From positions 22,376,305 through 22,440,304 of the forward strand of contig NC_052488.1 of assembly GCF_009730915.1 (NCBI RefSeq): a DNA stretch of 64,000 bases. The letters run 5' to 3'. The notes beneath the pieces are model-generated. The model was not told the DNA's origin and searched no databases. It saw only the letters and a program-made list of their open reading frames with translations. This DNA comes from Dioscorea cayenensis subsp. rotundata (lineage: Eukaryota; Streptophyta; Magnoliopsida; Dioscoreales; Dioscoreaceae). A program made the translations under genes and the position numbers. Positions 10,850-57,204 of the stretch are shown piece after piece; position 1 is the first letter of the stretch, and each line of letters starts with the position of its first letter.

Positions 10850-12799
10850 CTATTTTGTATCACTACGCCAACAGAACGATAACTTTGAACCCGGACCAGA
10901 AGCCCAACATGAGCCCGTGCCCGAACCTGAACCTAAACTCGGGCTGGAACCCAAGCCCGAACCCGGAGAAATAGAAACAAGCTCCTCTATCCGGTTCCTC
11001 ACGTCCTCCGGCGAATACCTCACCGCCGCAGAGCCGGCGCTGCCGCCGAGCAACTCCCTGCACCGCCAGTAGAATCCCCGGTAAGCCGGCACGACCATTC
11101 GCACAGCCGAAGCCCGGACTTCGTCTCTCGATGTCTTGTCCACCACCACCCACTCCCCTTGATTCCGCGAAGCCTCCTCAAATGCAGCATTGAAGGCCTT
11201 CATTGATTCTCCGGCCTCCTCCGCCGTCGCTACACCAACGGCCGGGATCGCCGCCGCCACCGTCGCCCAGACCAGCCTCTCGTAGTTGCCCATATAATGA
11301 CGAACTTTGGCGGAGTGCCTTTGAAGCCATTCGTCTCCGAGGATTTCTTTGAGCTCGGATTCACTGATCTTGTTCACAATGTAGTGGAGATTGTTAGCTA
11401 AGAATAGGTAGGATTGGCCGACGTGTTTGTAGGTCTCGGCCTTGCTGTCGAGCTTGCAGAGAAGGACGAAAACGAGCCATGATATCCTCTTCGCCATTGG
11501 AGATGAGAGCGAGCTTTCCTCTGGATCTGGTTCTTGGGGTGATGATGGGTTTGAATTGGCGAGGATATTGGCGAGTGGGAGCTTGTAATCGCCGAGGAAA
11601 ATGAGGTAGTTGATGACGTACCGTGTCAGAGGGTGGACCCCACCGCCTGAAATTGCTGACCTGGAGGCGTCTTTTTGGATGAGTGATTCGAAATCGGCGA
11701 GGAGAGAGTTCGCTGTTTCTTCGAGTTTTTGCAATGAGGTTAGGGTTTGGGAGAGGACGCTGGTGGTGGATTCGAAGGAGAAGAGGGTCTTGATGGAAGG
11801 GAGGAGGGTGGAGATAGTGTCATAGAGGTCTAGGATTCGGAAGAGCTTCTCCGGCGTGGATTTGGTTTTGGCGATGGAGTCTGGGAAGGAGAGAAGGGCG
11901 GTGGCGGCGTCACGGGTGATGTCGGCGAAGCAGGACTCGAGGATGGAGTTGGAGCCGGAGAAGACGTGCTCGGCTAGAGTAAGCTCGCTGGAGAAGAGGG
12001 TTTGGATGGCCGGACCAGTGCCGCGGAGCCAGGACTTGATCTTGAGCTCGAGGATGTCCCAATCGAGCTTCTGGATCTGGGACGAGGATAGCCGCTCGAA
12101 GCCAAGACGGTAGAGGCCCTCATCGACGATGGATTTCCGGCGGGTTTTGTAGATCCGGACGTACTCCTTACCGTACCCGGCGGCGATCATGGCTTCAGAG
12201 ATAGCTCGAAGGTCGTCGTCGGCGGCGGGGACAGCATCGGAAGCCGACGAGATCTTTTCCTCGTCGGATAACTCGTCGTTGCCGGAGGAGCTGGAGGTGC
12301 GAGCGGAAATGGATTCCAGAGGATCAGGAGAGGAAGACAGAAGGAGATCAAGCTCGTGCTCGAGCCGGCGGATCGCCGCCTGCATCAAAGCCTGGGCGCG
12401 GACGAGGTTGCGGGAACGGACGGCGGGGTCGCCGGCGAGCTCATCAGACGAGAAGAAGAGCATGGCGCGCTGGAGGTCGCCGACGGCGCGAAGAAGAAGG
12501 CCAGCCTCGCGCTTATCTGACCGGAAAAGTGACGTCATTCTCGCCTCGAGATTCGTACTGGGATCCCATCTCATGATGATGGATTCAGTGAGGGCGATGT
12601 TCTCGTCCATCATAGTTGCAGAGAAGGTCTGGCGGGAAGGAGAACAAGTTACACTTGATGAACGGCCAGGATAGTAGCTTGGAGATGGAGGAGCAGTTAA
12701 CGAACGGCCATGATTGGAGATTGGATCATGGAGCCGCTGGGGATGATGGCTCTCGTGATAAGAGCCAAAGAAGAGAGCTCGAAGTCCTAAGCGTGGCAT
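10850..12799 (-). CDS. EXO70: Exocyst complex subunit EXO70, probably EXO70H clade
   Basis: One intronless reading frame encodes 649 residues, typical of plant EXO70 paralogues. EXO70 binds phosphoinositides and tethers secretory vesicles to the plasma membrane within the exocyst. The N-terminal 60 residues are a variable Ser/Pro-rich leader. A conserved block ENIALTESIIMRWDPST follows at about 65-81. The EXO70 domain fills roughly residues 240-605. Its signature C-terminal part includes KAFNAAFEEASRNQGEW, VPAYRGFYWRCRELL and RYSPEDVRNRIEELVS. The tail is unusual, a Gly/Ser-rich stretch ending CWRSDTK. The lack of introns and the IIMRWDPS block suggest the H clade, which is implicated in trichomes and defence; clade placement is inference. 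GC content is far above the flanks, as is common for intronless plant genes. Confidence 0.95.
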   Translation of the reverse strand: MPRLGLRALFFGSYHESHHPQRLHDPISNHGRSLTAPPSPSYYPGRSSSVTCSPSRQTFSATMMDENIALTESIIMRWDPSTNLEARMTSLFRSDKREAGLLLRAVGDLQRAMLFFSSDELAGDPAVRSRNLVRAQALMQAAIRRLEHELDLLLSSSPDPLESISARTSSSSGNDELSDEEKISSASDAVPAADDDLRAISEAMIAAGYGKEYVRIYKTRRKSIVDEGLYRLGFERLSSSQIQKLDWDILELKIKSWLRGTGPAIQTLFSSELTLAEHVFSGSNSILESCFADITRDAATALLSFPDSIAKTKSTPEKLFRILDLYDTISTLLPSIKTLFSFESTTSVLSQTLTSLQKLEETANSLLADFESLIQKDASRSAISGGGVHPLTRYVINYLIFLGDYKLPLANILANSNPSSPQEPDPEESSLSSPMAKRISWLVFVLLCKLDSKAETYKHVGQSYLFLANNLHYIVNKISESELKEILGDEWLQRHSAKVRHYMGNYERLVWATVAAAIPAVGVATAEEAGESMKAFNAAFEEASRNQGEWVVVDKTSRDEVRASAVRMVVPAYRGFYWRCRELLGGSAGSAAVRYSPEDVRNRIEELVSISPGSGLGSSPSLGSGSGTGSCWASGPGSKLSFCWRSDTK

Positions 12800-12867
12800 T
12801 TTTTGTAATTACAACGCAAATATGCTCAAGTCCCTGAAGAATGGGAAAAGATAAGAGAGCCTTCGAG

Positions 12868-26894: not shown

Positions 26895-28445
26895 TTGAGA
26901 ATATGCTCTTGACCTTCCTTCATCTTTATAACTTGGATCCTGATTGGATATTAGTTATATTGTTTAGTTTTGGTTTTATGAGCATTATCATATGAGTTTT
27001 TTTACCCCTGAAGAACTGTAGACATATCCTTTGCCTCTTTTATTACAGAACTTCGCCCATTGATGTTACTTTACATGTCCGAGATGTTTAATTTTTGGTG
27101 TTATTTTCAATTTTCCTATGTTTTATGTTGTATCTCAGGTTATGCATATCTCCATATGGTATACTATATGGATCGTTTTTTATAAGTCTCGCTGTCAAAA
27201 CTTGTGTTCAGGTTGTGGGGGAGAAACTCATGCATTGGTTGATGAAATATTCAATACTTTTTGGTTTGTCATGTTAGTAAATAATTTTGTGTTGCAATAG
27301 CCATGTGGGTAAGTTTGTTATTTGAATTTAACGCCTTGTAAAATTAGAATTAAGTAGTGAAAGGTCTTTGGTTTTGTTAAAATTTTATTTTATTTTTTTG
27401 TTAAATATAAAAAATGATTTCTGTTGAAAATCTAAAAGTAACTCCTATAACGTTAATGATAAATGATTTACCCTTAGCAATTTCCTTTGGGGTGTCATCA
27501 CTCTGTTTATTGACAAATTTTTGCTAGATTCTGAGGGATGTCATAATGTTAATTTATTGTAGTAGTCTATGTTTTTTCCCTTTTAGCCTTTTGATCTCAA
27601 TATAACAGTGGCTTATTCATATTTAAAAAAAAAAAAAAAGGTTAAATAGGGAAATTGTCATGTAACAGTCTAATACTTGATCCTTAATCGTCTATGATGT
27701 GATGGGGTTAAAAAAAAATAAAAAAAAAAAGTTTTATATTTATTTTTATTTTAAAAATTTGGATAAAATAAATAAATAAGTAGAGGGTCATTCCCCTAGG
27801 TATGTTACAACTCATAAAGCCTATTCAGTCTCAAACCTTCACTCTGTTTTTATTGTATATTGAAATTATGATTTTATTATGATGTGATGGGGTTAATACT
27901 TAATCCTTAATAATATATGATTGGAAGCTCATTTGACAAATAAGAGAAAATGTCAATAATCAACTTTTAAATTTTGTACTCCAAGCGATTGACTTTATCT
28001 TGTTTTTTGAGTTGTTGAAGATTAATTTAAAACAACTCAGAACGTGAAAATTACTCATTATAATATTTTAAGTATAATTTGACCTGTTTTTCATGATCAT
28101 TACTTTTAAAAACTATAAAAATTTGAACCTAAATGCACCCAGCCAGATGGAATTCAATGCTTGCATTGAATTGTTTTATGAACATCATAATGATATGAAT
28201 AATTAAAGAAAACTCTTTATTTAGACCCCGTCAATTTTATTAAATAATTAGAGCAAGTGATCTCATTAATTATGTGTTTCCATTTTATATGCCGGATTGG
28301 GTGGGTTGTGATTCTTGTGAATCACTTATCTTGATCTCATTTAATTAAAAGATAATCTTTTGATTGCTCTTAATCTTAAGGATTCCCTTTTGGATTTATA
28401 TGTCCTTTCATTCTACTGATTCATCAGTCTCTTCAGACTCTTTCA
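26895..28445. other. Spacer between RPL35 and the lipase-like gene
   Basis: Holds the RPL35 3' UTR and AT-rich DNA with poly-A tracts near 27624-27640 and 27710-27731. No gene or repeat recognised. The last 50-100 bases are probably the leader of the downstream gene. Confidence 0.5.
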
Positions 28446-30179
28446 ATGGTAAAGTGTCCCTTCTTTTCTTTAATTTCTCTCTTTATTTCTTCTGCTTTTT
28501 TTTTTTAATCATTTTATCATCTTTTATTTCATTTTGAATTTTACAGGATCAAAGTTCAGAAATTTTCATTTTTGAAGAGGTATCATCAAAACATGAAAGT
28601 TTTAACAAATTATTATGAAAATTCATGTTATGTTGATCATCATGGTTGATCTTTTTTTAATTTCAGGAGTTCATATTTAATCCAAGAGGAGTAAAGCTCT
28701 TCACTTGCAGATGGCTTCCAAAAACCAAAGAACCAAAAGCTCTAATGTTCATTTGCCATGGTACATACACACTTCACAATCTTTCCATTTCTTTCTAACT
28801 TACACCAATTCAAAGTTTTATAAACACTCTGAAATATTTCCCAGGTTATGCCATGGAATGCAGTATTTCAATGAGAGGTAAACAACTATAAACACTCTCT
28901 TTGCATGTTCACTGATGAAATATAATGAAACCTTTAATGAACTCATGCACACATTGTTCAGGCACTGGAACTAGACTTGCAGAAGCTGGCTATGCAGTGT
29001 ATGGAATTGACTATGAAGGCCATGGAAAATCCTCTGGACTTCAAGGCTATATACCGAGTTTCGACAATCTTGTTAATGATTGTTCAAACTATTTCATCAG
29101 CATTTGTGGTATGAAATATTATTATAATTACTGTAAATTTCAATCATGAACTCAGTTTGTATTCAATTTGTTTTCTGTGATTCAAGAGAAACCAGAAAAC
29201 AAGAAAAGAAGAAGGTTTCTACTTGGAGAGTCTATGGGAGGTGCTGTACTTCTTCTTCTTCACAGAAAGGAACCTTCTTTTTGGGATGGAGCTATTCTTG
29301 TTGCTCCAATGTGCAAGGTGTGTTCTTCTTCTCTTTTCATTTATTTATTTATTTATTTTGAGTTTTTTTTTATAAAAAAAAAAAACATTTTAATTTTTTA
29401 CTGTTCATGTGTATTAATTATCTCAGTTAGCTGAAGAAATCAAGCCTCATCCCATTGTGATAAAGATATTGAAGAAGCTCTGCAACATCATCCCAACATG
29501 GAAAGTAACTCCCACTCAAGATATCATAGACATTGCCTTCAAAAGCCCTGAATTCAGACAAGAAGTATATACATACATACATACATATATAGTTCACAAA
29601 TTCAACATGTTCTTATTTTTTTTACAAATAATTTGTAGGTTCGATGTAATCCATATTGTTATAAAGGAAGGCCTCGACTAAAGACAGCTGATGAACTTCT
29701 TACTGTCAGTTTAGACATTGAACATAATTTGCATCGAGTAAGTATGATATAATAGTTTCAGACAATGTTTTTTTTTTTTTACTAATTAATAGGCGACAAG
29801 CGTCCTCCATTTATAATGTATTGTATTTGCTTTGATACTACCTTTAATGTTATGCCTAAAGGTGACTCTGCCATTCTTGGTTGTTCACGGCGGAGATGAC
29901 ATTGTCACTGATCCTTCAGTTAGCAAACTACTCTATGAGTTGGCCGGTAGCGAAGACAAGACTTTCAAGTTATACTCGGGAATGTGGCATGCTCTCACCT
30001 CCGGTGAGCCTCCAGGAAACATTAATCTCGTATTTTTTGACATCATTGCATGGCTAGATGAAAGGTCGTGCGCCGACACTGCCACCGAGCAATCTTCAGA
30101 GACAGAACTGAAGGTGAAGCATGATCAACAACAAGAGTCCTCAGTGCCTCAAGGCAGCAACAGGTTCCTTGAGAACTAG
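28446..30179 (+). CDS. Monoacylglycerol lipase / caffeoylshikimate esterase-like hydrolase
   Basis: Nine exons (28446-28448, 28547-28579, 28667-28760, 28845-28877, 28962-29108, 29187-29317, 29427-29564, 29639-29737, 29862-30179) encode 331 residues. The fold is an alpha/beta hydrolase of the plant MAGL group (Hydrolase_4 family). Visible motifs are the oxyanion loop FICHGYAMEC, DYEGHGKSSGLQGY, the nucleophile elbow LLGESMGGAV (Ser about 119), the acid HGGDDIVTD (Asp about 239) and SGMWHAL (His about 269). The triad is complete. Members hydrolyse monoacylglycerols or lysolipids, and one clade cleaves caffeoyl shikimate in lignin synthesis; which applies here is not decidable. The start codon is the last three bases of exon 1. 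A 40-residue polar C-terminal tail (TATEQSSETELKVKHDQQQE) extends past the domain. Confidence 0.92.
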
Positions 30180-30640: not shown

Positions 30641-33600
30641 ATGAAGCAGCTCCACAAGCAAGCAAGCCTCAACCAGCACCTCCAGATGCCCACCCACTCC
30701 GCCAAGCCCTCCAAGCCCCCTCCCCGCTCCGGCGCCGCCCGCTCCGCCGCCTCCTACCTCCTCCGTGAGCAACGTCTTCTCTTTGTCCTCGTCGGTGCTT
30801 TCCTTGCCGCCTCCTTCTTTCTCCTCCGCCCTTCTCTCCCGGTACCCATCTCTCACCCTTCCACCTCCCACCTTATCCTCCCCCAACCCACCTACACCCT
30901 TCCCACCACCCCCTTCTCCGCCGCCCGCCGAGTTCCGGCTGCTCTTAAGCAGCGCGGACGCCGTGTTGTTGTCACTGGCGGAGCTGGGTTCGTTGGGAGT
31001 CACCTCGTCGACAAGCTCATCGCCCGCGGTGACAGCGTCATCGTGATCGATAACTTTTTTACAGGGCGGAAGGAGAATTTGGTCCACCACTTCGGTGATC
31101 CGAGGTTTGAGCTGATCCGGCATGATGTTGTGGAGCCGATCTTGCTGGAAGTGGATCAGATCTATCATCTCGCTTGCCCCGCTTCTCCTGTGCATTATAA
31201 GTACAATCCCATCAAGACTATCATATCCTTCTTCATTGTTTCCTGATCTGATAAAATTGGTTGCTTTGCTTTTGCGTTTTTCTTATTGGTGGGATTTTTC
31301 CGTGATTTTCTACTATGATTTGTGTTCCTCTTGTGCGATTTCATGTAGGCCGCTGATCTGATTGAATGAATTATCCTCTGTAATGGCTTCTAACTAGTAA
31401 GCTTTGATGGAATTATGGGTTTGTGGGGCAGTTTTGGTGTTTCATTGTTTGGTTGTGGTGGATTTTCTTTGCCGATTTGGAGAAATGTTGTGAATTTCTA
31501 TGGTTTTTTAAGGTTTAGTGAGTTGTTTTAGAAAAGATGCAGACCTTTTTTTCTTTCTATTTAATTGGTTTCTTTTGTTACTTTAGCTAGATGCAGTAGT
31601 TGTTGGTTGGTAGGAATGCTTGCAATTCTTTCAGTTTTTAGACATCACTGTCTGTTAGTTTCTTTCACTAGTCTCACTGTAATGATAAGTTTCTTCTTTG
31701 GATGGATCATGGATAAACAGTTGTAATTGGATTGAGGTATATGCATGAGGAGAAAATGGAGCAAGAATGTTTTTTTTTTTTCTTATAGTAAAATGAGATG
31801 ATGAGATACTGAATGAAACATTTTCGATAAAATCAGTGTAGAGACTTGTTTAGATCATGAATAAGTATTGCATGCATGACGTAAGATATGAAGTTTTGTC
31901 TGGATCCTTAACGATGAGTACAAGACAAATGTGATGGGAACCTTGAACATGCTGGGCTTGGCAAAAAGGATTGGTGCTCGGTTCTTGCTAACAAGCACAA
32001 GTGAGGTTTATGGTGACCCGCTTGAGCACCCTCAGAAGGAAACTTATTGGGGCCATGTTAATCCTATAGGTATGCCGCCTTGCAATTTTAAATTGGTTTG
32101 ATCTGTATGCTTGGCTACTGAAAGGCCATCACTGTTTTGCTTTGTGCTGTAAATATTGTATTGTGTTTAGGTGTAAGGAGCTGTTATGATGAAGGGAAAA
32201 GGACAGCAGAAACGTTAACTATGGATTATCATCGAGGTGCTGAGGTTGAGGTATGTTTGCTTTTTATCTTGTAGCATTACAAAAACATACTTTTAATGTT
32301 TCTAGAAGTCTAGCGTTATCTCTTTCGAATGGATTGGTGTTGAGTGAGGGAAATATTTTAATTTGTTAAATAGTTATCCCATCCAATAGGGATAAGAAAA
32401 CCCCATAGTTTCTTCTCCCGTTTTGGGTAGGTTCTGACCAGACCATGAATCTTGGTATTGTATTGTGCTGTCAACAATGTTGGCTTTTCTTGTTTTTTAT
32501 CATGTTAACATTTGAGTGTAGGTGATGCCTTGTAGGAGCCATTAGGTCTTGGTTCTTGACCTTTTGTTGGAAGATATATCACAGATTTTCCATGATAAGC
32601 TTTCAACTATATGTTGGAATGGCTATTAGTGTTTGTTCTAGAACTTGACAATTAAAGTGGAGTGGGTTACTGTTTTTTCAGGTGCGTATTGCACGTATTT
32701 TCAATACATATGGTCCTCGCATGTGCTTGGATGACGGGCGTGTTGTTAGCAATTTTGTTGCACAGGTTTGTTCGCAACATAGACTATTGTTTATTTTTAT
32801 TTAGTTGTCTTAATGAAGCAACTACTTTTTTTAAGATCATCAAGGATTAATAGGGTCAAGATGTACTAATCATAAAAGTATGCTTTGTAGGCCCTTCGTA
32901 GACAGCCAATGACCGTTTACGGTGATGGAAAACAAACTCGAAGTTTTCAGTATGTATCTGATCTGGTATGAAGTTTACTTCTTGTCTGCATGCATATTTG
33001 TTTTCCATGTTATGTTAGAAAGTATAAACCCACATATACACACCTATGACAACCTCATATTTGTAGATCAGCTTTTGCTGAATAAAGTTGGCCATAAATG
33101 GAATTCAAGAAGTATAGCTTTTGAAAGATCCTCTGTTCTTGTGTTGTGTTTCCTTTAAACCTTCAGTTTGCCTGTAATTAGCTGAGCATGCTTACTTTTT
33201 GCACGCCTCTGATGATAAAATTTGTTTCTTGATCATATAAGCATGGGAAATGGTTAACAATCACTTCTCAAATTGCAACTTTATGAAGTCTTGAAGATAT
33301 TAGTTGCCAATGCCACCTTTTGTTGTAATGACTCTATAGGTCAAAATCTAAAACAGTCTCACTTAATTTTTCATCTTAGAGGAATTGTTGATAATTTACC
33401 TTTGTGCAATTTAAAGACATGACAGTCTAACTGACCACTCAGCTTATGCATATGTGCTCTTACCATCTTTATCTTGAAGGAGATAACTCAACTACTCCCT
33501 CTAGGAATCCATTTAATGACTGTACTGACTTGGGCTCAGCAAAGTCCAGCATGTTCCAGTTGTTGACCGTGAGAACCATCCTTAGTTCTAGATTTAATAA

Positions 33601-34635
33601 ATAACTCTTGGAGAAAATTGTTAATGGTTATGAAGCCACAGGTGGGCAAGGGTAATCAAGTGACTTTTTGTATAACAAGTGTTAGTTATTGCTGAAGTTT
33701 TAGGAATGAAAATTCCAAGGATTCTCTGTTTTTTTGTGACATCTCATTAACGCGCATATCAGAAAATGGTGATTGGAGCCTTCCATGGCTCTACCTCATA
33801 AAGCACTGATGCATTAATTATGAGGTCAAAAGATTGATAGCTGCCATCCTCTTTTACATGTTAGACTTGTCCTTGCACATTGCAGACAACTTGTTTTTGA
33901 TGTTTTCAGTAACATAAAATCTGCTGTCTCACTCTGATCTGGATCATTCATATTTCCAGTCTACTGAAATTTGAGAGTTTATATTTCCTTAGATGGAAAA
34001 TTGGAAGAGGTGGATCTTTCTTAGCCATATTAAATGTGTTGTGACAGAATCTATAGGTTGAGGACAACTAGTAATTACCAATTCATGCAGATGCTTGTCA
34101 ATTTTGTGTATGCATCAAAAACAGAAACGTAGAGGTGGTACATATTCTTAGATCATGAATTATATATATTGATAAACTTGTATACTATTCAAAATAAATG
34201 CAATATGAAAGACATTTTCTATTGAATGCATTTGCTTAAACTTGCTAGGTTGATGGATTGGTTGCACTAATGGAAAGTGACCACATTGGACCTTTCAACT
34301 TGGGAAATCCTGGAGAGTTCACCATGCTGGAGCTTGCTGAGGTTCACCATGAACACAAACCAATACATTCTACCATTCACTTTATTCATTTGTAACATAA
34401 CTTCACATATGTTTACGGAATGCCTGCTCTTATGATGTAGGTTGTCAAGGAAACAATCGATCCTGATGCGACCATCGATTTTAAAGAGAACACTGCAGAT
34501 GACCCTCACATGAGGAAACCAGATATCACCAAGGCAAAAGAACTTCTGAATTGGGAGCCGAAGGTCTCGTTGCGAGAAGGGCTTCCGTTGATGGTTACCG
34601 ATTTCAGGAAACGGATTTTGGACGAGGAGAACTGA
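30641..34635 (+). CDS. UXS: UDP-glucuronate decarboxylase (UDP-xylose synthase), membrane-anchored type
   Basis: Seven exons (30641-31222, 31922-32069, 32171-32250, 32682-32765, 32891-32965, 34249-34341, 34441-34635) encode 418 residues. The enzyme converts UDP-glucuronate to UDP-xylose with bound NAD, supplying xylose for xylan and xyloglucan. It belongs to the short-chain dehydrogenase superfamily. A cytosolic N-terminus is followed by a single membrane anchor at about 46-62 ([17 protein letters not shown]), so it is a type II Golgi protein like Arabidopsis UXS2/UXS4. The NAD-binding motif [10 protein letters not shown] is at 113-122. The catalytic Thr/Ser region is [10 protein letters not shown], and the Tyr-x3-Lys pair is in [11 protein letters not shown] (Tyr 249, Lys 253). 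The sequence [10 protein letters not shown] and the C-terminal TDFRKRI are also typical. The first intron is of the U12 AT-AC class. The fifth intron is long (1,283 bp). Confidence 0.96.
31223..31921 (+). other. U12-type AT-AC intron in UXS
   Basis: The intron starts ATATCCTT, the exact U12 5' splice-site consensus, right after the codon ATC. It ends in AC at 31920-31921. A branch-site match TCCTTAAC lies at 31905-31912, about 10 bases before the acceptor. Joining NPIKTI to KTNVMGTL reproduces the conserved UXS sequence exactly. No GT-AG alternative gives that join. Confidence 0.92.
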
Positions 34636-35106: not shown

Positions 35107-36095
35107 TTATGAAGAAGAATCCCCAGGAGTAGGCCAGAACTGAGCACTCTTAACCTTAGAGATGCTATTAAGAACTCCCAACGGCGTCACATCTCCAATC
35201 ACCGTCACCTTCTTCGCAGCAAAATCTATAAGAAATGACTTCACTCCTGTTTCAATTACCATCTATAATTAATTTTTTTTAAAAAAAAACTAAATATGTT
35301 CCTTTTTAAAATTAAATTAAATTAAAAAAAAACTACAATTCATCACCTTCCATCTTAGAGATGTGCTTCCTGACTTTGCCTTCACATCCCTTGCAATGCA
35401 AAGACACCCTCAGCACCACCACCTAATTATCAAAAGATTCAACCACATAAACATCAATCAAACATCAAACAATTAAAGCAAACAAAGGAACAAAACCACT
35501 AGTTCCAAGACCCAACCTGCTGGTTTTCTGGCTTAACAACAGCATGATCACCACTAGCATCAGCATCAGCATCAGTAACAGTAACAGTAACAGAAGAAGC
35601 AGCACTAGTACTACTAGTAACAGTAGTAACAATAGAAGATAAAGAAGAAGAAGATGATGATGATGGTTCATGATCTTCTTTATCTGGAGATGATACTGAT
35701 AAAAACTCAGGCTCAGCAAAGACATGATCATGAGAAAGAGTTACATCACTGTTAAGAAGGAAACGAGTTGAACTTCCAGGACTAGCACTTGTGTTGTTGT
35801 TAATGGTGACAAAGTTACTACTGTTTGATTTCTCAGAGCTCTTGTTGTTGGTTTTCTTCTTCTTCTTCTTGGTTTTGGAGGAGGGTGGTATTTGAGGGGG
35901 AAGTAGTGCAGGTGGTTTAAGTGGTTTGGTTCTCCGGGGATCACGGAGGTGAGGGTTGTAACGGTCAATGGCCCGGCCGGTGCCGGAGGAGATGAGAGAA
36001 CTGCCTTCTATGGTGGCACAGATGGCTGCTGTGGAAGCTGGTGAGGTGCATGAGAAGTTGAGGCCTTTCATCTCTTTGAAAAGTAAGGAAGCCAT
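35107..36095 (-). CDS. NaKR-like heavy-metal-associated (HMA) domain protein
   Basis: Three exons (36095-35517, 35422-35347, 35246-35107, transcribed leftwards) encode 264 residues. The N-terminal part has MKGLNFSCTSPASTAAICATI and GRAIDRYNPHLRDPRR, hallmarks of the SODIUM POTASSIUM ROOT DEFECTIVE family. A Lys-rich stretch (KTKKKKKKTNNK) and a long Ser/Thr-rich linker follow. The HMA domain occupies about residues 194-257, starting VVVLRVSLHCKGCEGKVRKH with the CxxC metal-binding pair, and ends near KSAQFWPTP. Arabidopsis NaKR1 is a phloem metal-binding protein affecting Na/K levels and flowering. The C-terminus is GDSSS with no CaaX box, which separates it from the isoprenylated HIPP group. 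Ligand and role here are inference. Confidence 0.93.
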
Positions 36096-38225
36096 GGATT
36101 TGATTTGGTTGGAGCTTGAATGAAAGAGTAAAAGAAAAGAAGAAGAGATTAATATTTCTTTCTCTTTTCTTTAGTTCATGTTGGGTTTGGTGTGCTTTTA
36201 AAGATGAACAACAGAACAATGGAAGGGGGTCCATTGTAAATAGGCTGATAAGAACTGTTTCTTGATGAGCTGGATTTTTTAATGTTCATTAACTTGTGTG
36301 ATGTATGTCTATATATATATATATAGTTATTTTTTTTTTACTAGTTAAATTGTATTTGTTTTAATATTAAATGAGCCATCAATATTGGTGATTTTAATTA
36401 TTTTTTATGTTTATTTTTTAATAATTTAATAAAAGAGAATTTTATGACAAATATTTATGTGTATATATAGATAGTTTAGTACCCTTATAATGTTTTTTCC
36501 GCTCCAGCTTTTTTGATTTAGTTGGTTTGGAGGATTAATTGATTGGATATCATAGAACCATAATCTCTTAAATTTTTACGATGACAGATAAAGATATATA
36601 GTACTATTTGGTGGTGAGATGATTTATCAATAAATTTATTAATTTTAATAAATAAATAAAAAGTTTAGAAATAATTTATGACACTGAAAACTAATGATCT
36701 ATTTTTGATAATAGTCTCTTAATTAGGAGGTATCCTAAGTATCCTTCAATAATTAATATATTGATATTTTTGACCTTTTTTTTTTATACTATTTCATCAT
36801 TGGTGGATCATGAAGCATATTTATGTACTATATTAATTATTGTGTTTATCTCTTGGATAACATTTTAAAGTTGCTTTATATGCTTGTCTAAATATATATA
36901 TATATAATTTTTTTTTAAAATAAGATATAGTGGTGTCTCTACCTACCTCCAAAGAAATAACAAATGCATGCATGTAGACTACAGTATAGTAGTGAAGCCT
37001 TTGTATAAGCAAATTTTAGCAAATTGTCAATACATTAATATTGGTAGGTACTTTTATTATAAATTATAAATTCATTTTATATTTTTGGTCTCATGGTGGT
37101 CCTTCATTGAAATTAAATATTTTGTAGCCTTACGTTTGCATTCAAGAACAAGTGAACAACAATAAATCAAAGATGACAGAATTGAAAAGAAAAACAAAAA
37201 TTAAAAATTCCTTGATTTTTTAATTAACATTCAAAGTTTGGCACAAATAAATGAGCAATGGCATCTTATGCATCAATAGTATTTATTATAATAAATGACA
37301 CATCAGTATATGTCAGCGTTACTTTAGGCATTATGCTCTTATTTTGTCCCAAAATCAATTAAAACCAAATCCTTCAAAGGTTAAACGTGATCTTATCCTT
37401 AATTTCTTGATTAACATGTTAAACTAACACCCTTTTGCCATTTGTGACAACTATAAAGTATAAGCCACTTGTTTCATTTCATACCATCATTAATGCTATC
37501 ACTAATCACTAATCAATATATATAATGAATTATATCTATGATAAAAGTTGGCCTTTCTTGATATTTATATTATATATGTAGCCTTTTTTTTTATATAAGT
37601 TTAGTTTTATTTATCATCATCTCTACATGGAAAGATCAAACATTTTATCTCATATTTAATGACACCACAATCTAATTTTTAATGACAAACAATCTCACAT
37701 TTTTTTAATAATTTGCATATTATTTATGAATTTTTATTGTTAGTTTTTGGATCAAAATGAATGTATTTTGAGTTTAAAAATCTAGAGTAGTGTATTATTT
37801 TAATAAAAATATTTTAAGAAATATTTATTTTCCTATGAATTTCAATACAACATAGATAAGTATCATATGTTTAGATAAATGATTATTTTTGAGGAGAGAG
37901 ATCCAAGAAGATTAATTATTTGTTAAATAAACAAGATTCAATTTACAACCACACAGAAGTTGGTGCATCTCTGAATCGCTGTAGATCAGGTTCTGATTCC
38001 ATGTTTATTTTAAAGTTTAAAATATATCACGTAAATCCAAAGTTCTCAATGCATCATTTTTCTCTTCATTTTGTTGTTTAAGTATTTCTTTACTTATATA
38101 TCACACTAATGTCTCTGATGTTGTACTTCTCTGAATTAATTAGTTCAATTATGACATTAATTTTATAAAAAAAAAATTGAAAATGTATGTTCGGTATAAT
38201 TTGCAAAAGGTACTAGAAGGAGCGA

Positions 38226-40898: not shown

Positions 40899-43800
40899 TT
40901 ATATGAAGTCTGTAACAAGTTCTTGCAAAAGTTCTTCCTTTATCAGGCCCTCTATCTCTCTGCCAATTAGATCGATATCATCCTCGATGTCGAACCACAT
41001 TGTGTCCAGGACCTTGTCCTCTGGCTTACCTCGGCTTAATTTTTTCCTTAGTCTGGCAATCATGAGCCATGCCTCTTCAACAAGCCTCTCACGAGCACAC
41101 ATAGGACCGAACTTTTTCTTTGACTTCACCCACGGATGTAAATCCATACAAGGAGCAAGTATTTCTGTCAGGACAACATTGATAAGATCAAACAGTAATT
41201 TCCTCTCAGAGCTGGACCATTCCACTATAATTCCATACTTCCTTTCAAGCTTCTCGAACACATCTGGGCAAACTGGATATTCTGGCATATAACAAGCATC
41301 AAAAACCCTGTCCCAGTTTGCACAACCAATACCTGAATCAATGAGCACATCAACCAGGTAAGAGAATTCCCTGTCCTCTTCATCCTTCAATTCTTCAAGC
41401 ATCCCTCTTAATTCTTCAATAGGTGACCGGTGCACTCCTCCAGTATCATCATTACCCAGAACAAGAGTCCCAGATTCTGAAATATCAATATCCTCTGATT
41501 CCAATTTAAGAAGTTGAAGCTGTATCCGGAGCCCTGCAACATAAAACACATATGATAGAGTTATGGGAAACATAATTACGGATGTGAAAATAGCAAGTCT
41601 TCTTTTTTTCTCTCTCTTTTTTAATTTCTCACCCTGCAGATCCACATTGACACCATCACAAGAACCTATGGTATAGTTCTCTCCTTCAGATGCAGGCTGC
41701 TCTAGAACAGATACTGGACTAGGGTGTTCAAGCTCCTTTAATCTAACTGGAGAACCTGACTCCAGTTTGTTACATGACTCCTGTAGACACATGACATTCT
41801 TTTTGAGTTAAATGATGAAATTGAAAACATGATAACCAGAACATGATAGCCAGTCTATGGAAAATTTGTTGCCTGGGAGCTGCAAGAAGAATGCAAGAGA
41901 AGCAAGATAGCAATTTTAATTGGGAACCGTACAAAGAACTCAAGGAAAACACTAATGTTCAGAATTCTCCACAGAAGAAATGAAATGAGTTTCGATAAGC
42001 ACACCATGCTCACTATAGGAATTGGATATATATCATAATATGACCCATCTAGCCTGCACCTCACTAGTGTCAAGGGCCAATGGGAAAAAAAACAAAGGAA
42101 TCAAGGTGAGATAAAGAATGCACACCAGCTTGAGAGCAAGTGTCTATCCTTTCTCTCCATATGCTATCTTTAACAGTTGCCAAGAGATTAAAAAATAAAG
42201 TGAACCATCTCTTTGGCAGTTATTAATTGTGTTATTGAGAACTTTCATCTTTGGAACACCATAAATTCAGGTAAATGCCATACCTGATCTTCGGGATTCA
42301 CAAGATGCAAATTTGCATCTCTATTGTCAAGCAGCTGCTCTTTATGAGAAATGGCATCATCATGCACTCTAGAATTTTCTTCATGAAGATTTCTCATGTT
42401 GAACTTATTGCTGAATTCTGAATGAACATGATCATCACTTAAAGCTAGCTTATATTCTGGTTTAACAGAAGTGCATGAACAAGGAACATTACTGCAGCAT
42501 TTAGATTTTCTGCGAGTAAACCTTCCTCTTTGGCAAAGGTTTTCATCCACAGAACTATAAGTCCCAAGACTCAGCACATTGTTCAATGTAGAAAAATTGT
42601 CATATGCACCAGGTTTGCCTCTTCTGCTTACTCTTGTGTTTCTTAATCCCATAGGGGAAGATGCAGGATGTGTGGAGATTGGGAAATTGCAGCCGTTCTT
42701 CGAAGTATCCTTGTTGCTAGTAGCTGGAGAACAGCTTCTTTCTGCAAGCATGCCATCTCTGGCCAACCTTTCACCTGAAATTTTCCGAGTAATTGATGAG
42801 TCTGTTATTTTCTTAAGCAAGTCCTTGTCAGATAGAGAAAGCATTTCAGCCAAAGTATTCGAACCCCTATCACTAAGTGCCATATCCCCAAACTGATGGG
42901 CTGTTTTCCACCTCTGAGACAGACGTCTTCGGCCCTCCCTGTTTACAGATAATTCTGACACAGTTTTGTTGTGGCGTTTATACTGATCAGTGAAGTCACT
43001 CAAACTCCGTTGAGCTGCCTTGTAATTTTTATGCTGAGTAATCTGTGACATATAATCTATGCTATCACTAGAGATATATTTGTTGAATCTTGAAGCAAGG
43101 ATTCTTTCAATATCACGGCTAGCATCATTTCCCATTGCTTTCGTAATATTCCTAGCCATTTCGCTTGAACATGTTGCTTTTTTCCTTGTGGTCCCCGCAA
43201 GATTAAACTTTGGCCAGTCTCTTCCTTCTGCATTCAAACTCTTGGCTCGACAGCACCTAAATTCTCCATGGCCTCTGTCATGTGTAATAAAATTACCAAA
43301 GGAACTGGGAAGCACAATATGTTCATCACTTTTCTCAGTCTTCTCAAGACTTGGTCTCAAAATCACTATTTGAGTGGGATTAATGAAAGCTACCATCTTA
43401 TCTGCATATTGTGACTTCAACATCTTATCTGAAAAGGAGAGATTATGTTCTTTTTGAGAGAAGTTACCAGAGCTACTTTCAGGTTTCTGAGTAGAGTGGT
43501 CCTTTTGAACTAGAGTGCACTTTTCTGCTCTTCTCCCTGATGTATTTTTCAACTCATAGCCTTTGTGCTTGGTAGATATTGACGGTTTTAAAATTGTGAT
43601 ATCACTTGGGTGAGTCAACGAAATACTCTTCACATCTTGAAAATGATTTAGAAACAAAGAATTGGGTTCTTGGAGAAATTTCATAGCCAAAGCCTTTTCA
43701 TGATCCAAGACTTCTGATGCAACATTAGATGCTTCTGAATCATCAATTGTTTCATTATTTGAGAAATCCTCTGCATCCGTGAAACTGTGCCTGACTAGTT

Positions 43801-45267
43801 CTACGTGAGTGTCACTTCCTTTTGAGGTTTCCATCCCTTTACTTAATCTCTTACCACTGTTTTTCTCCACCTTGGATGTTTCCATGATTTCAAAAACATC
43901 TTTGAATTCCTGGTACTCATTTCTGACCTTCCCACTTGAACAATAATCATGGAATACAAGTTTATCTTGAAGGCCTGATGTCTTTTGGAAATATTTATGC
44001 ATTCCACTCTGTTTATCATAGACCATGTGTGGAGGAAGGGCATCAAGGCCCATTAACCTTGCAATCACACTTGGAGAAGGATGTCTAGTTTCTTTGTCAT
44101 TCTGCATCTCTTCAACCACGTTCATTGGCTTTCCTTTATATGTCTTGGACAAGTTTCGATTGAGATCCAGGGGAAACTGTGAGAACAAAGACACAAAAAA
44201 TGCAATAATTATCCAGTGAGTATGACGCAAATGTACTTTATAAAAAAAACAAGAGGCACAAAGTTAAATGGACAGTTTGTGCAAAATTCTCAAATCAATT
44301 CCAATACTATATGATTGCATGCAAAGATACATTTCATACAAAGTCCACAAAGGAGACATAAACTTACTGAATTTTCACCTATCGGACCGTCAGTGACATA
44401 TGTATCATCCAATGTTTTCCTCAAAAAATTACACCGTTCTCCAAATTGGTCATTTCCTGTCATCAACTTCTTAATCAGATTAAATTCTACAAAATTAAAA
44501 AAAAAAAAAAAGGAATAACATCATGCCCACATAATATTCTAAAGATGAAACAGAACAGCACATCATTATAGTGATATGAAACAAAATAATAACATGTCAT
44601 GCCAAATCTCATTGGCACGCACACAAAAACAAAAGGTTAATGATTTCAAAAGAAAATAATGTCATTTCCTATTGAAAGTCATATTCCAACATTTGTTTTG
44701 CTGTACATCTAGGGTTTCACTCATATAAACAATGAACATAGTCAATTTCCTGTTTGGCATTTGAAACTGCCTAAAAACTCAGAGCAAAAACTTATCTAAA
44801 AGCCTTGCATTTCATACTTTCCTAGTAAAATCATGATACTAATCCAATAATTTTGGAAGGAATTATTATTATTATCAAGAAGAAAAATCGAGAAAAAGAA
44901 AATAAAACCGAATAATCTCAAACTAAAAAAGGTTCACCTTTCAAGCAAGAACTACGAGCAAAAACACATAAACCTTGAAATGAAGCCAGCGATCCAGATC
45001 AAACAACGAAACAAGTAACCAAAAGCGACGAAATTGAAGACAAATCCAAACCAGATACCAACATAGGACCAAGGAAAACCAAATAAGACAAGAAAATCAA
45101 GCATCAATAGCACTGATTATAATCACGATCACCAAAAAGAAGCAACCTGGGCGATGAGCACGGCCCATAGAGACAAGATCGCAGGCAGCTGGCCGAAGAT
45201 ACCGGTAAGCTTTCTCTCTGCGCCACCATCTACTACTCTCCTTCCTCCGCTGCGATCGTTGGTCCAT
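40899..45267 (-). CDS. DUF4378 / TRM (LONGIFOLIA-related) protein
   Basis: Five exons, transcribed leftwards (45267-45147, 44486-44368, 44176-42284, 41780-41633, 41533-40899), encode about 971 residues. The motif PSPSVIARLMGLDALP lies at about 113-128, the RLMGL signature of this family. An IVILRPS segment, like the family's 'IVVLKP' block, is near residue 290. A DUF4378 domain fills roughly 790-965, with EDREFSYLVDVLIDSGI, WDRVFDACYMPEYPVCPDVF and ELLQELVTDFI. TRM proteins recruit the TON1-TRM-PP2A complex to cortical microtubules and shape organs; the role here is inferred from membership. The two N-terminal exons are the least certain: the start MDQRSQRRKESSRWWRREK was chosen because its phase fits the next exon. 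The third exon alone spans 1.9 kb. The leader is CT-rich. Confidence 0.85.
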
Positions 45268-56129: not shown

Positions 56130-57143
56130 TTAGTTAGAAGCTTTGGTCTTGTTTTCCATCATAGCACCCATGGCTACCATATTCTCTTCAAAGTACTTGG
56201 CATATGGATGCCCCCTTGGCACAAGCCTCCGGTACTTATCAAATTGCTTCATTGCCTCTTCCTTCTTCCTCAACAGAGTATATATAATACCTTGGCAAAG
56301 ATAAGGCCGGAAATCTCTAGGCTCCTCCTTCACCAAGCCCTCATATATCTCCAGCGCCTCTTCATAGTCCCCCTGTATCACCTTCACCTGAGCCTTCAGC
56401 AGCTTGAAATCCCTCAGCTCCACCTTCCTATTATCCTTCTTGCACTTCTCCATCATCTCCTCAACTCTATTCAAAATGCCATCAAGCTCATCTTCGTTCT
56501 TGGACGCAGCCATTACCAACCCATGGTACGCCTCGACGACAAAGGGATCAGTAGAGAGGACACCCTCGAATCCCTCCTTCGCGACCTCAACATCCCCATT
56601 ATAGAAGAGGAAGTGGGATCGAAGCAGGGGGAGATCAGCATCGCCAGGCTCGAGTAGGATGAGCCTGTCAGCAACGGCAACGGCATCAGGGAGCTTCCGG
56701 AACCTGACCTTGATCTCCATGAGTGCGCGAAGCGATTTCACGTCGTCGGGGTAGGAAGCAAGGTGGTTTTCAAGGGCTTGCTCCTTATCCTCATCAGCTA
56801 GGGCTTCAGGGAGAGTGAATTCGGGCTGGGGCTGGGTCTGAGGCTGGGGTTCGGACTGGACGGTGGTGGCGGAGAGGGAAGCAAAAGGGGAACGATGAGG
56901 ACGGGCAAGGAGGAGGGCGGCGGCGGCAGCGACGGTGGCGGCGGCGGAGATTGAGATTGTTTGGAGGGCTTTGGAAATGGGAGTGGATGGGGAGGGATGG
57001 TGAGAGGCGCGGAGAAGGAGGGGTTTGCGAGGAGAGGAGGAGGAAGAGGAGGAGAAGGAGAAGGGTCTAGAGAGGGAGGAAGGGCGAGGGAGGAGAGGGA
57101 GAAGGAGAGGATTGTGGAGTTTGACGGCGGATTCCATGGCCAT
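56130..57143 (-). CDS. SG1: SLOW GREEN 1-like chloroplast TPR protein
   Basis: A single exon encodes 337 residues. Residues 1-45 are Ser/Leu/Pro-rich with few acidic residues, a typical chloroplast transit peptide. A hydrophobic Ala-rich segment (about 68-80) follows, then a Pro/Gln-rich linker (SEPQPQTQPQPEFTLPE). From about 120 to 330 the protein is helical with tetratricopeptide repeats, including AVAVADRLILLEPGDADL, DYEEALEIYEGLVKEEPRDF and KEEAMKQFDKYRRLVP. This layout and sequence match Arabidopsis SG1, required for early chloroplast development. M1 and M3 are both possible starts. The promoter carries four site II elements. Confidence 0.92.
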   Translation of the reverse strand: MAMESAVKLHNPLLLPLLPRPSSLSRPFSFSSSSSSSPRKPLLLRASHHPSPSTPISKALQTISISAAATVAAAAALLLARPHRSPFASLSATTVQSEPQPQTQPQPEFTLPEALADEDKEQALENHLASYPDDVKSLRALMEIKVRFRKLPDAVAVADRLILLEPGDADLPLLRSHFLFYNGDVEVAKEGFEGVLSTDPFVVEAYHGLVMAASKNEDELDGILNRVEEMMEKCKKDNRKVELRDFKLLKAQVKVIQGDYEEALEIYEGLVKEEPRDFRPYLCQGIIYTLLRKKEEAMKQFDKYRRLVPRGHPYAKYFEENMVAMGAMMENKTKASN

Positions 57144-57204
57144 TGCCAGAGCTCACTTCCTCTTCTTCTTCGGCTCGTCTTCTTCTCTTTGTTTTCTTCT
57201 CGTT

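Follow-up and report, generated by a model that had tools for sequence, protein, structure and literature searches.

A predicted U12-type AT-AC intron in a putative plant UDP-xylose synthase gene

Introns of the U12 type are excised by a separate, minor spliceosome, which works with U11, U12, U4atac and U6atac snRNPs. They carry a 5′ splice site with the consensus RTATCCTT(T) and a branch site close to TTCCTTRAY, at a short distance from the 3′ end, and they lack a polypyrimidine tract. In an annotation of Arabidopsis, 81 introns with AT-AC ends stand against 117,732 with GT-AG ends (available text of PMC5716242). Among the U12-type introns themselves, the AT-AC share is 23% in soybean, 26% in Arabidopsis, 13% in maize and 22% in rice (PMC7367187, Table 2, in the part of the paper available). 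The first-pass annotation of the DNA analyzed here had called AT-AC introns a small minority even of the U12 class; the values for these four plants agree with a minority, but not with a tiny one. According to the available text of PMC10639083, a bias of minor over major introns towards the 5′ end of genes reaches significance in 112 of the 290 streptophyte species; minor introns are also biased away from phase 0, which accounts for about 22% of them on average. With regard to genes of UDP-xylose synthase (UXS), the accessible part of a study of Populus states that all introns of seven UXS genes have GT-AG ends (PMC3629030).

The analysis concerned a 64-kb stretch of DNA (referred to as the window), in which positions 31223-31921 very probably constitute a U12-type AT-AC intron of a UXS gene of the membrane-anchored group, as judged from the nucleotide sequence and the homology of the predicted protein. 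The elements of this intron are as follows:

31223..31921, + strand: intron 1, U12-type AT-AC (predicted), 699 nt, phase 0
31223..31231, + strand: U12-type 5′ splice site ATATCCTTC, with C at +5
31905..31912, + strand: branch-site motif TCCTTAAC of the U12 type; the branch A is presumably 31911
31920..31921, + strand: 3′ terminal dinucleotide AC (the intron closes with GAGTAC)

Exon 1 ends with AAG ACT ATC at 31222, the intron opens with ATATCCTTCTTC at 31223 and exon 2 begins at 31922. The coordinates proposed in the first-pass annotation were exact, with the ends, the motifs and the flanking codons located where it had placed them. The 5′ site ATATCCTTC at 31223 matches the U12 consensus. 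The branch site ATCCTTAAC agrees with TTCCTTRAY at 8 of 9 positions, the mismatch being an A at the first T of the longer consensus TTCCTTAAC. This motif had been described as lying about 10 bases before the end of the intron, which is accurate: TCCTTAAC is followed by 9 further intron bases, and the final base of the intron is located 10 nt downstream of the presumed branch A (31911). Of the 18 bases preceding the terminal dinucleotide, 8 are pyrimidines, whereas each GT-AG intron of the same gene has 9-12; this is the lowest content of the six introns, but by little, and the lack of a pyrimidine tract constitutes weak evidence.

The UXS gene (30641-34635, + strand) was modeled from splice signals and homology as seven exons forming one open frame, with a predicted product of 418 aa followed by a stop codon. 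Introns 2-6 are all of the GT-AG type. The exons are:

30641..31222, + strand: exon 1, 582 nt; encodes the N-terminal hydrophobic segment and the GGAGFVG NAD-binding motif; its last codon is the ATC of NPIKTI
31922..32069, + strand: exon 2; first codons AAG ACA AAT GTG
32171..32250, + strand: exon 3; encodes YDEGK (YxxxK); preceded by GT-AG intron 32070-32170
32682..32765, + strand: exon 4; preceded by GT-AG intron 32251-32681
32891..32965, + strand: exon 5; preceded by GT-AG intron 32766-32890
34249..34341, + strand: exon 6; preceded by GT-AG intron 32966-34248 (1283 nt)
34441..34635, + strand: exon 7, stop codon included; preceded by GT-AG intron 34342-34440

The best match of the predicted protein was to UXS1 in the PDB (2B69 and three other entries; E 5.8e-134, query residues 104-413); we take 2B69, 4GLL, 4M55 and 4LK3 to be structures of human UXS1. 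Its Pfam matches, PF16363 and PF01370, both represent broader families, and the 25 listed NCBIfam families (31 in total) all stayed below their cut-offs. The motifs GGAGFVG (GxxGxxG) and YDEGK (YxxxK) are present at residues 113 and 249, respectively. The UXS identity assigned by the first-pass annotation is thus corroborated by the match over the catalytic domain and by both motifs, and these data support the prediction that the product is a UDP-xylose synthase (UDP-glucuronate decarboxylase), which would convert UDP-glucuronic acid to UDP-xylose. The most hydrophobic 19-residue stretch of the predicted protein starts at residue 46, where the membrane-anchored plant UXS proteins would be expected to have one. 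Since a hydrophobic N-terminal stretch is combined here with six coding introns, as in Group II of tobacco, the gene would belong to the membrane-anchored (Golgi-type) plant group, an assignment based on these two features and not on a tree. The usual donor of GT-AG introns is GTAAGT, and that of intron 6 (34342-34440), GAG/GTTCACC, looks weak; its junction is nevertheless required by homology (ELAEVVKE).

Several other putative coding sequences were observed in the window, the gene content of which points to a plant. Gene pieces with matches to alpha/beta hydrolases (Pfam PF12146, in two frames) lie just upstream of the UXS gene (29150-30179, + strand), and presumably resemble a monoacylglycerol lipase. 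Just downstream of it (35107-36170, − strand) are open frames with low-complexity stretches, which we assume to encode a heavy-metal-associated-domain protein; the frame at 35499-36170 (− strand) had no Pfam match. Three long open frames are located on the − strand: (i) 599-1984 (461 aa), presumably encoding a seven-transmembrane GPR107-like protein, (ii) 10850-12808 (652 aa), which we take for an EXO70 exocyst subunit, and (iii) 42245-44263 (672 aa), containing the sequence SVIARLMGLD, as is found, we believe, in LONGIFOLIA/TRM-type proteins. No match at the gathering score was obtained with Rfam in the window, and a tRNA scan of the window found none.

At the protein level, exons 1 and 2 join as NPIKTI/KTNVMG, where UXS1 of 2B69 has NPIKTLKTNTIG with no gap (the alignments were inspected at this junction for three of the four PDB entries). 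Of 94 relatives (14 viral and the best 80 of at least 535 bacterial), 92 show no gap within the 12 residues flanking the junction on either side, and in the other two (L013 and L014) the junction is not covered. The viral loci L006-L012, with shared values for identity and range, could be near-copies of one another, and one of the peptides used in the search for relatives, HYKYNPIK, stops just short of the junction. Within the 92 sequences (the bacterial ones again being the best 80 of at least 535), K occupies position 195 in 84 and T position 196 in 83, position 197 holds S in 46 and N in 34, and position 200 has G in all 92. The join falls in a conserved UXS stretch, with no gap in UXS1 or in any of the 92 covering relatives, but the absence of gaps does not amount to identity, since these relatives vary at several positions around the junction.

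The motifs were also considered in relation to chance. A motif pair, defined as ATATCCTT followed within 5 kb by TCCTTRAY and a nearby AC, was present in 66% of the sequences when the window was simulated 200 times with a first-order Markov model (mean of 1.6 pairs), and the real window contains 4 such pairs, 2 of which start from another ATATCCTT at 27024. With chance pairs this common, the motifs alone were rejected as evidence. They count because they are situated exactly at the ends required by protein homology: the probability of finding both at the homology-fixed junction is roughly 1.6e-7, as obtained by multiplying the simulated densities, with three equivalent junctions allowed and independence assumed. 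A looser scan of the window for U12-like introns returned 21 pairs, two of them from 31223. Another candidate from the minus strand, a U12-like GT-AG pair running from 57989 to 55500, was rejected, its donor being upstream of a single-exon gene (56130-57152) and its span covering the whole of that gene; the U12-like GT-AG pairs from 57989 are probably due to chance. The single-exon frame itself (56130-57152, − strand) gave weak tetratricopeptide matches in Pfam and presumably encodes a protein resembling the chloroplast SLOW GREEN 1-like protein.

Other splice pairs (GT-AG, GC-AG, AT-AC and AT-AG) were tested with the last base of exon 1 at 31150-31419 and the first base of exon 2 at 31700-31999. 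The phase of exon 3 is kept by 480 pairs, and scores against UXS1 were computed for the 52 of them without a stop codon. The highest score (543) was that of the AT-AC pair 31222/31922, followed by AT-AG 31219/31919 (540) and AT-AG 31222/31919 (532). Homology alone leaves the exact ends unsettled, since the runner-up is only 3 units lower; they are settled by the motifs, the intron of the runner-up opening with ATCATA and lacking the U12 donor at this boundary. The same mRNA results from three junctions, CA-TA, AT-AC and TA-CA, and of these only AT-AC is, to our knowledge, a known terminal pair. The use of an ordinary GT-AG intron nearby (e.g. 31238-31918 or 31238-31924), with the AT-AC motifs being coincidental, is very unlikely. 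Such pairs do exist and preserve the frame, and coincidence is favored by the frequency of motif pairs in simulated windows (66%) and by the good-looking pair 57989-55500 (− strand), itself probably due to chance. However, the highest-scoring GT-AG pair, 31237/31919, reaches 527, and GT-AG products would contain a six-residue insert, ISFFIY, or ISFFI with the K lost, in a region where neither UXS1 nor any of the 92 covering relatives has a gap. The prediction that this exon end would be misplaced by GT-AG gene finders is, in principle, supported.

Two further possibilities concern how the intron is removed. U12-type splicing might employ a second 3′ end, either as the main or as an additional one, for instance the AG at 31917-31918, which would keep the frame and add a single Tyr to the product (score 532); the AC at 31925-31926, 15 nt from the branch A, would break the frame if joined to 31222. 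This is compatible with the AT-AC reading, and the chance that it applies is slight: this AG follows the branch A at a distance of only 7 nt, and an added residue at the junction was seen in none of the 92 covering relatives (the bacterial ones being the best 80 of at least 535). Still less credible, to the point of being almost negligible, is the removal of an AT-AC intron by the major (U2) spliceosome, as in sodium-channel genes. The available text of PMC2831892 states that the splicing pathway is not decided by the terminal dinucleotides alone, and reports G at +5 in the U2-type AT-AC introns of these genes. Intron 1 has C at this position, which argues against the U2 type, and it also contains a full match to ATATCCTT and the motif TCCTTAAC, whose A is situated 10 nt before the intron terminus. 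Assignment to the U12-type AT-AC class, as put forward in the first-pass annotation, is therefore upheld by the agreement of the 5′ site, the branch site, the spacing, the C at +5 and a junction across which the homologous proteins align without gaps.

On the basis of established knowledge of the minor spliceosome, ATATCCTT would be paired first by U11 and then by U6atac snRNA, and TCCTTAAC by U12 snRNA, with the branch A bulged. The minor spliceosome would then join ATC to AAG, giving NPIKTIKTNVMG. The AT-AC ends of intron 1 may also need DROL1, the loss of which is reported to impair the splicing of AT-AC introns in Arabidopsis (a finding cited in the available text of PMC11039992). If intron 1 is retained, seven intron codons are read before a stop at 31244-31246 (+ strand), which yields a product of 201 residues; this stop precedes both the YxxxK motif and the remaining five introns. 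From general knowledge, the retained RNA would be a likely target of nonsense-mediated decay. It is reasonable to suppose that the amount of the UXS enzyme may follow the capacity of the minor spliceosome.

The analysis provides a precise gene model for a cell-wall enzyme. It also carries a warning for annotation, as even the best GT-AG-only model tested adds six residues to a conserved stretch. Conservation of the intron in plants would make UXS one more candidate target for the cell-wall effects of minor-spliceosome mutants. A broader proposal is that the AT-AC intron is conserved in membrane-anchored plant UXS genes, where it has gone unrecorded or has been forced to GT-AG, and that a step in the supply of the precursor of xylan and xyloglucan is coupled to minor-spliceosome capacity; this is a tentative idea, which we regard as rather doubtful. 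Among the matches listed in open-licence full text, no paper linking U12-type introns with UXS was found, and the available portions of the papers on UXS genes of tobacco, Populus and lotus (PMC10631120, PMC3629030, PMC12787360) make no mention of AT-AC introns. Intron 1 may already be listed in databases such as U12DB or in supplementary tables. A DNA pattern combining the branch site and the start of exon 2 had, as expected, no match in the viral contigs.

With six introns in its coding region, the gene resembles the Group II UXS genes of tobacco (available text of PMC10631120) and the pattern I UXS genes of Populus (available text of PMC3629030), and the predicted protein shares the N-terminal hydrophobic segment of the membrane-anchored plant UXS group. 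It differs from the UXS genes of lotus, which are reported to have one intron or none (PMC12787360, in the part available). Compared with Populus, where the accessible text of PMC3629030 gives all UXS introns as GT-AG and the third intron of pattern I as the long one, the gene has an AT-AC first intron, and its long intron (1283 nt) is the fifth. Either Populus differs in this respect, or the ends of its introns were assigned by rule. In relation to plant minor introns in general, the first-intron position fits the 5′ bias, whereas its phase, 0, is the less usual one among them; no difference from plant U12-type AT-AC introns other than this phase was found. The intron shares with the latter the ATATCCTT donor, the TCCTTAAC branch site and the short distance to the AC, and, like other plant minor introns, it is a lone minor intron among several GT-AG introns, near the 5′ end of its gene. 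Intron 1 of this UXS gene is, on this reading, a case of a well-known kind of intron.
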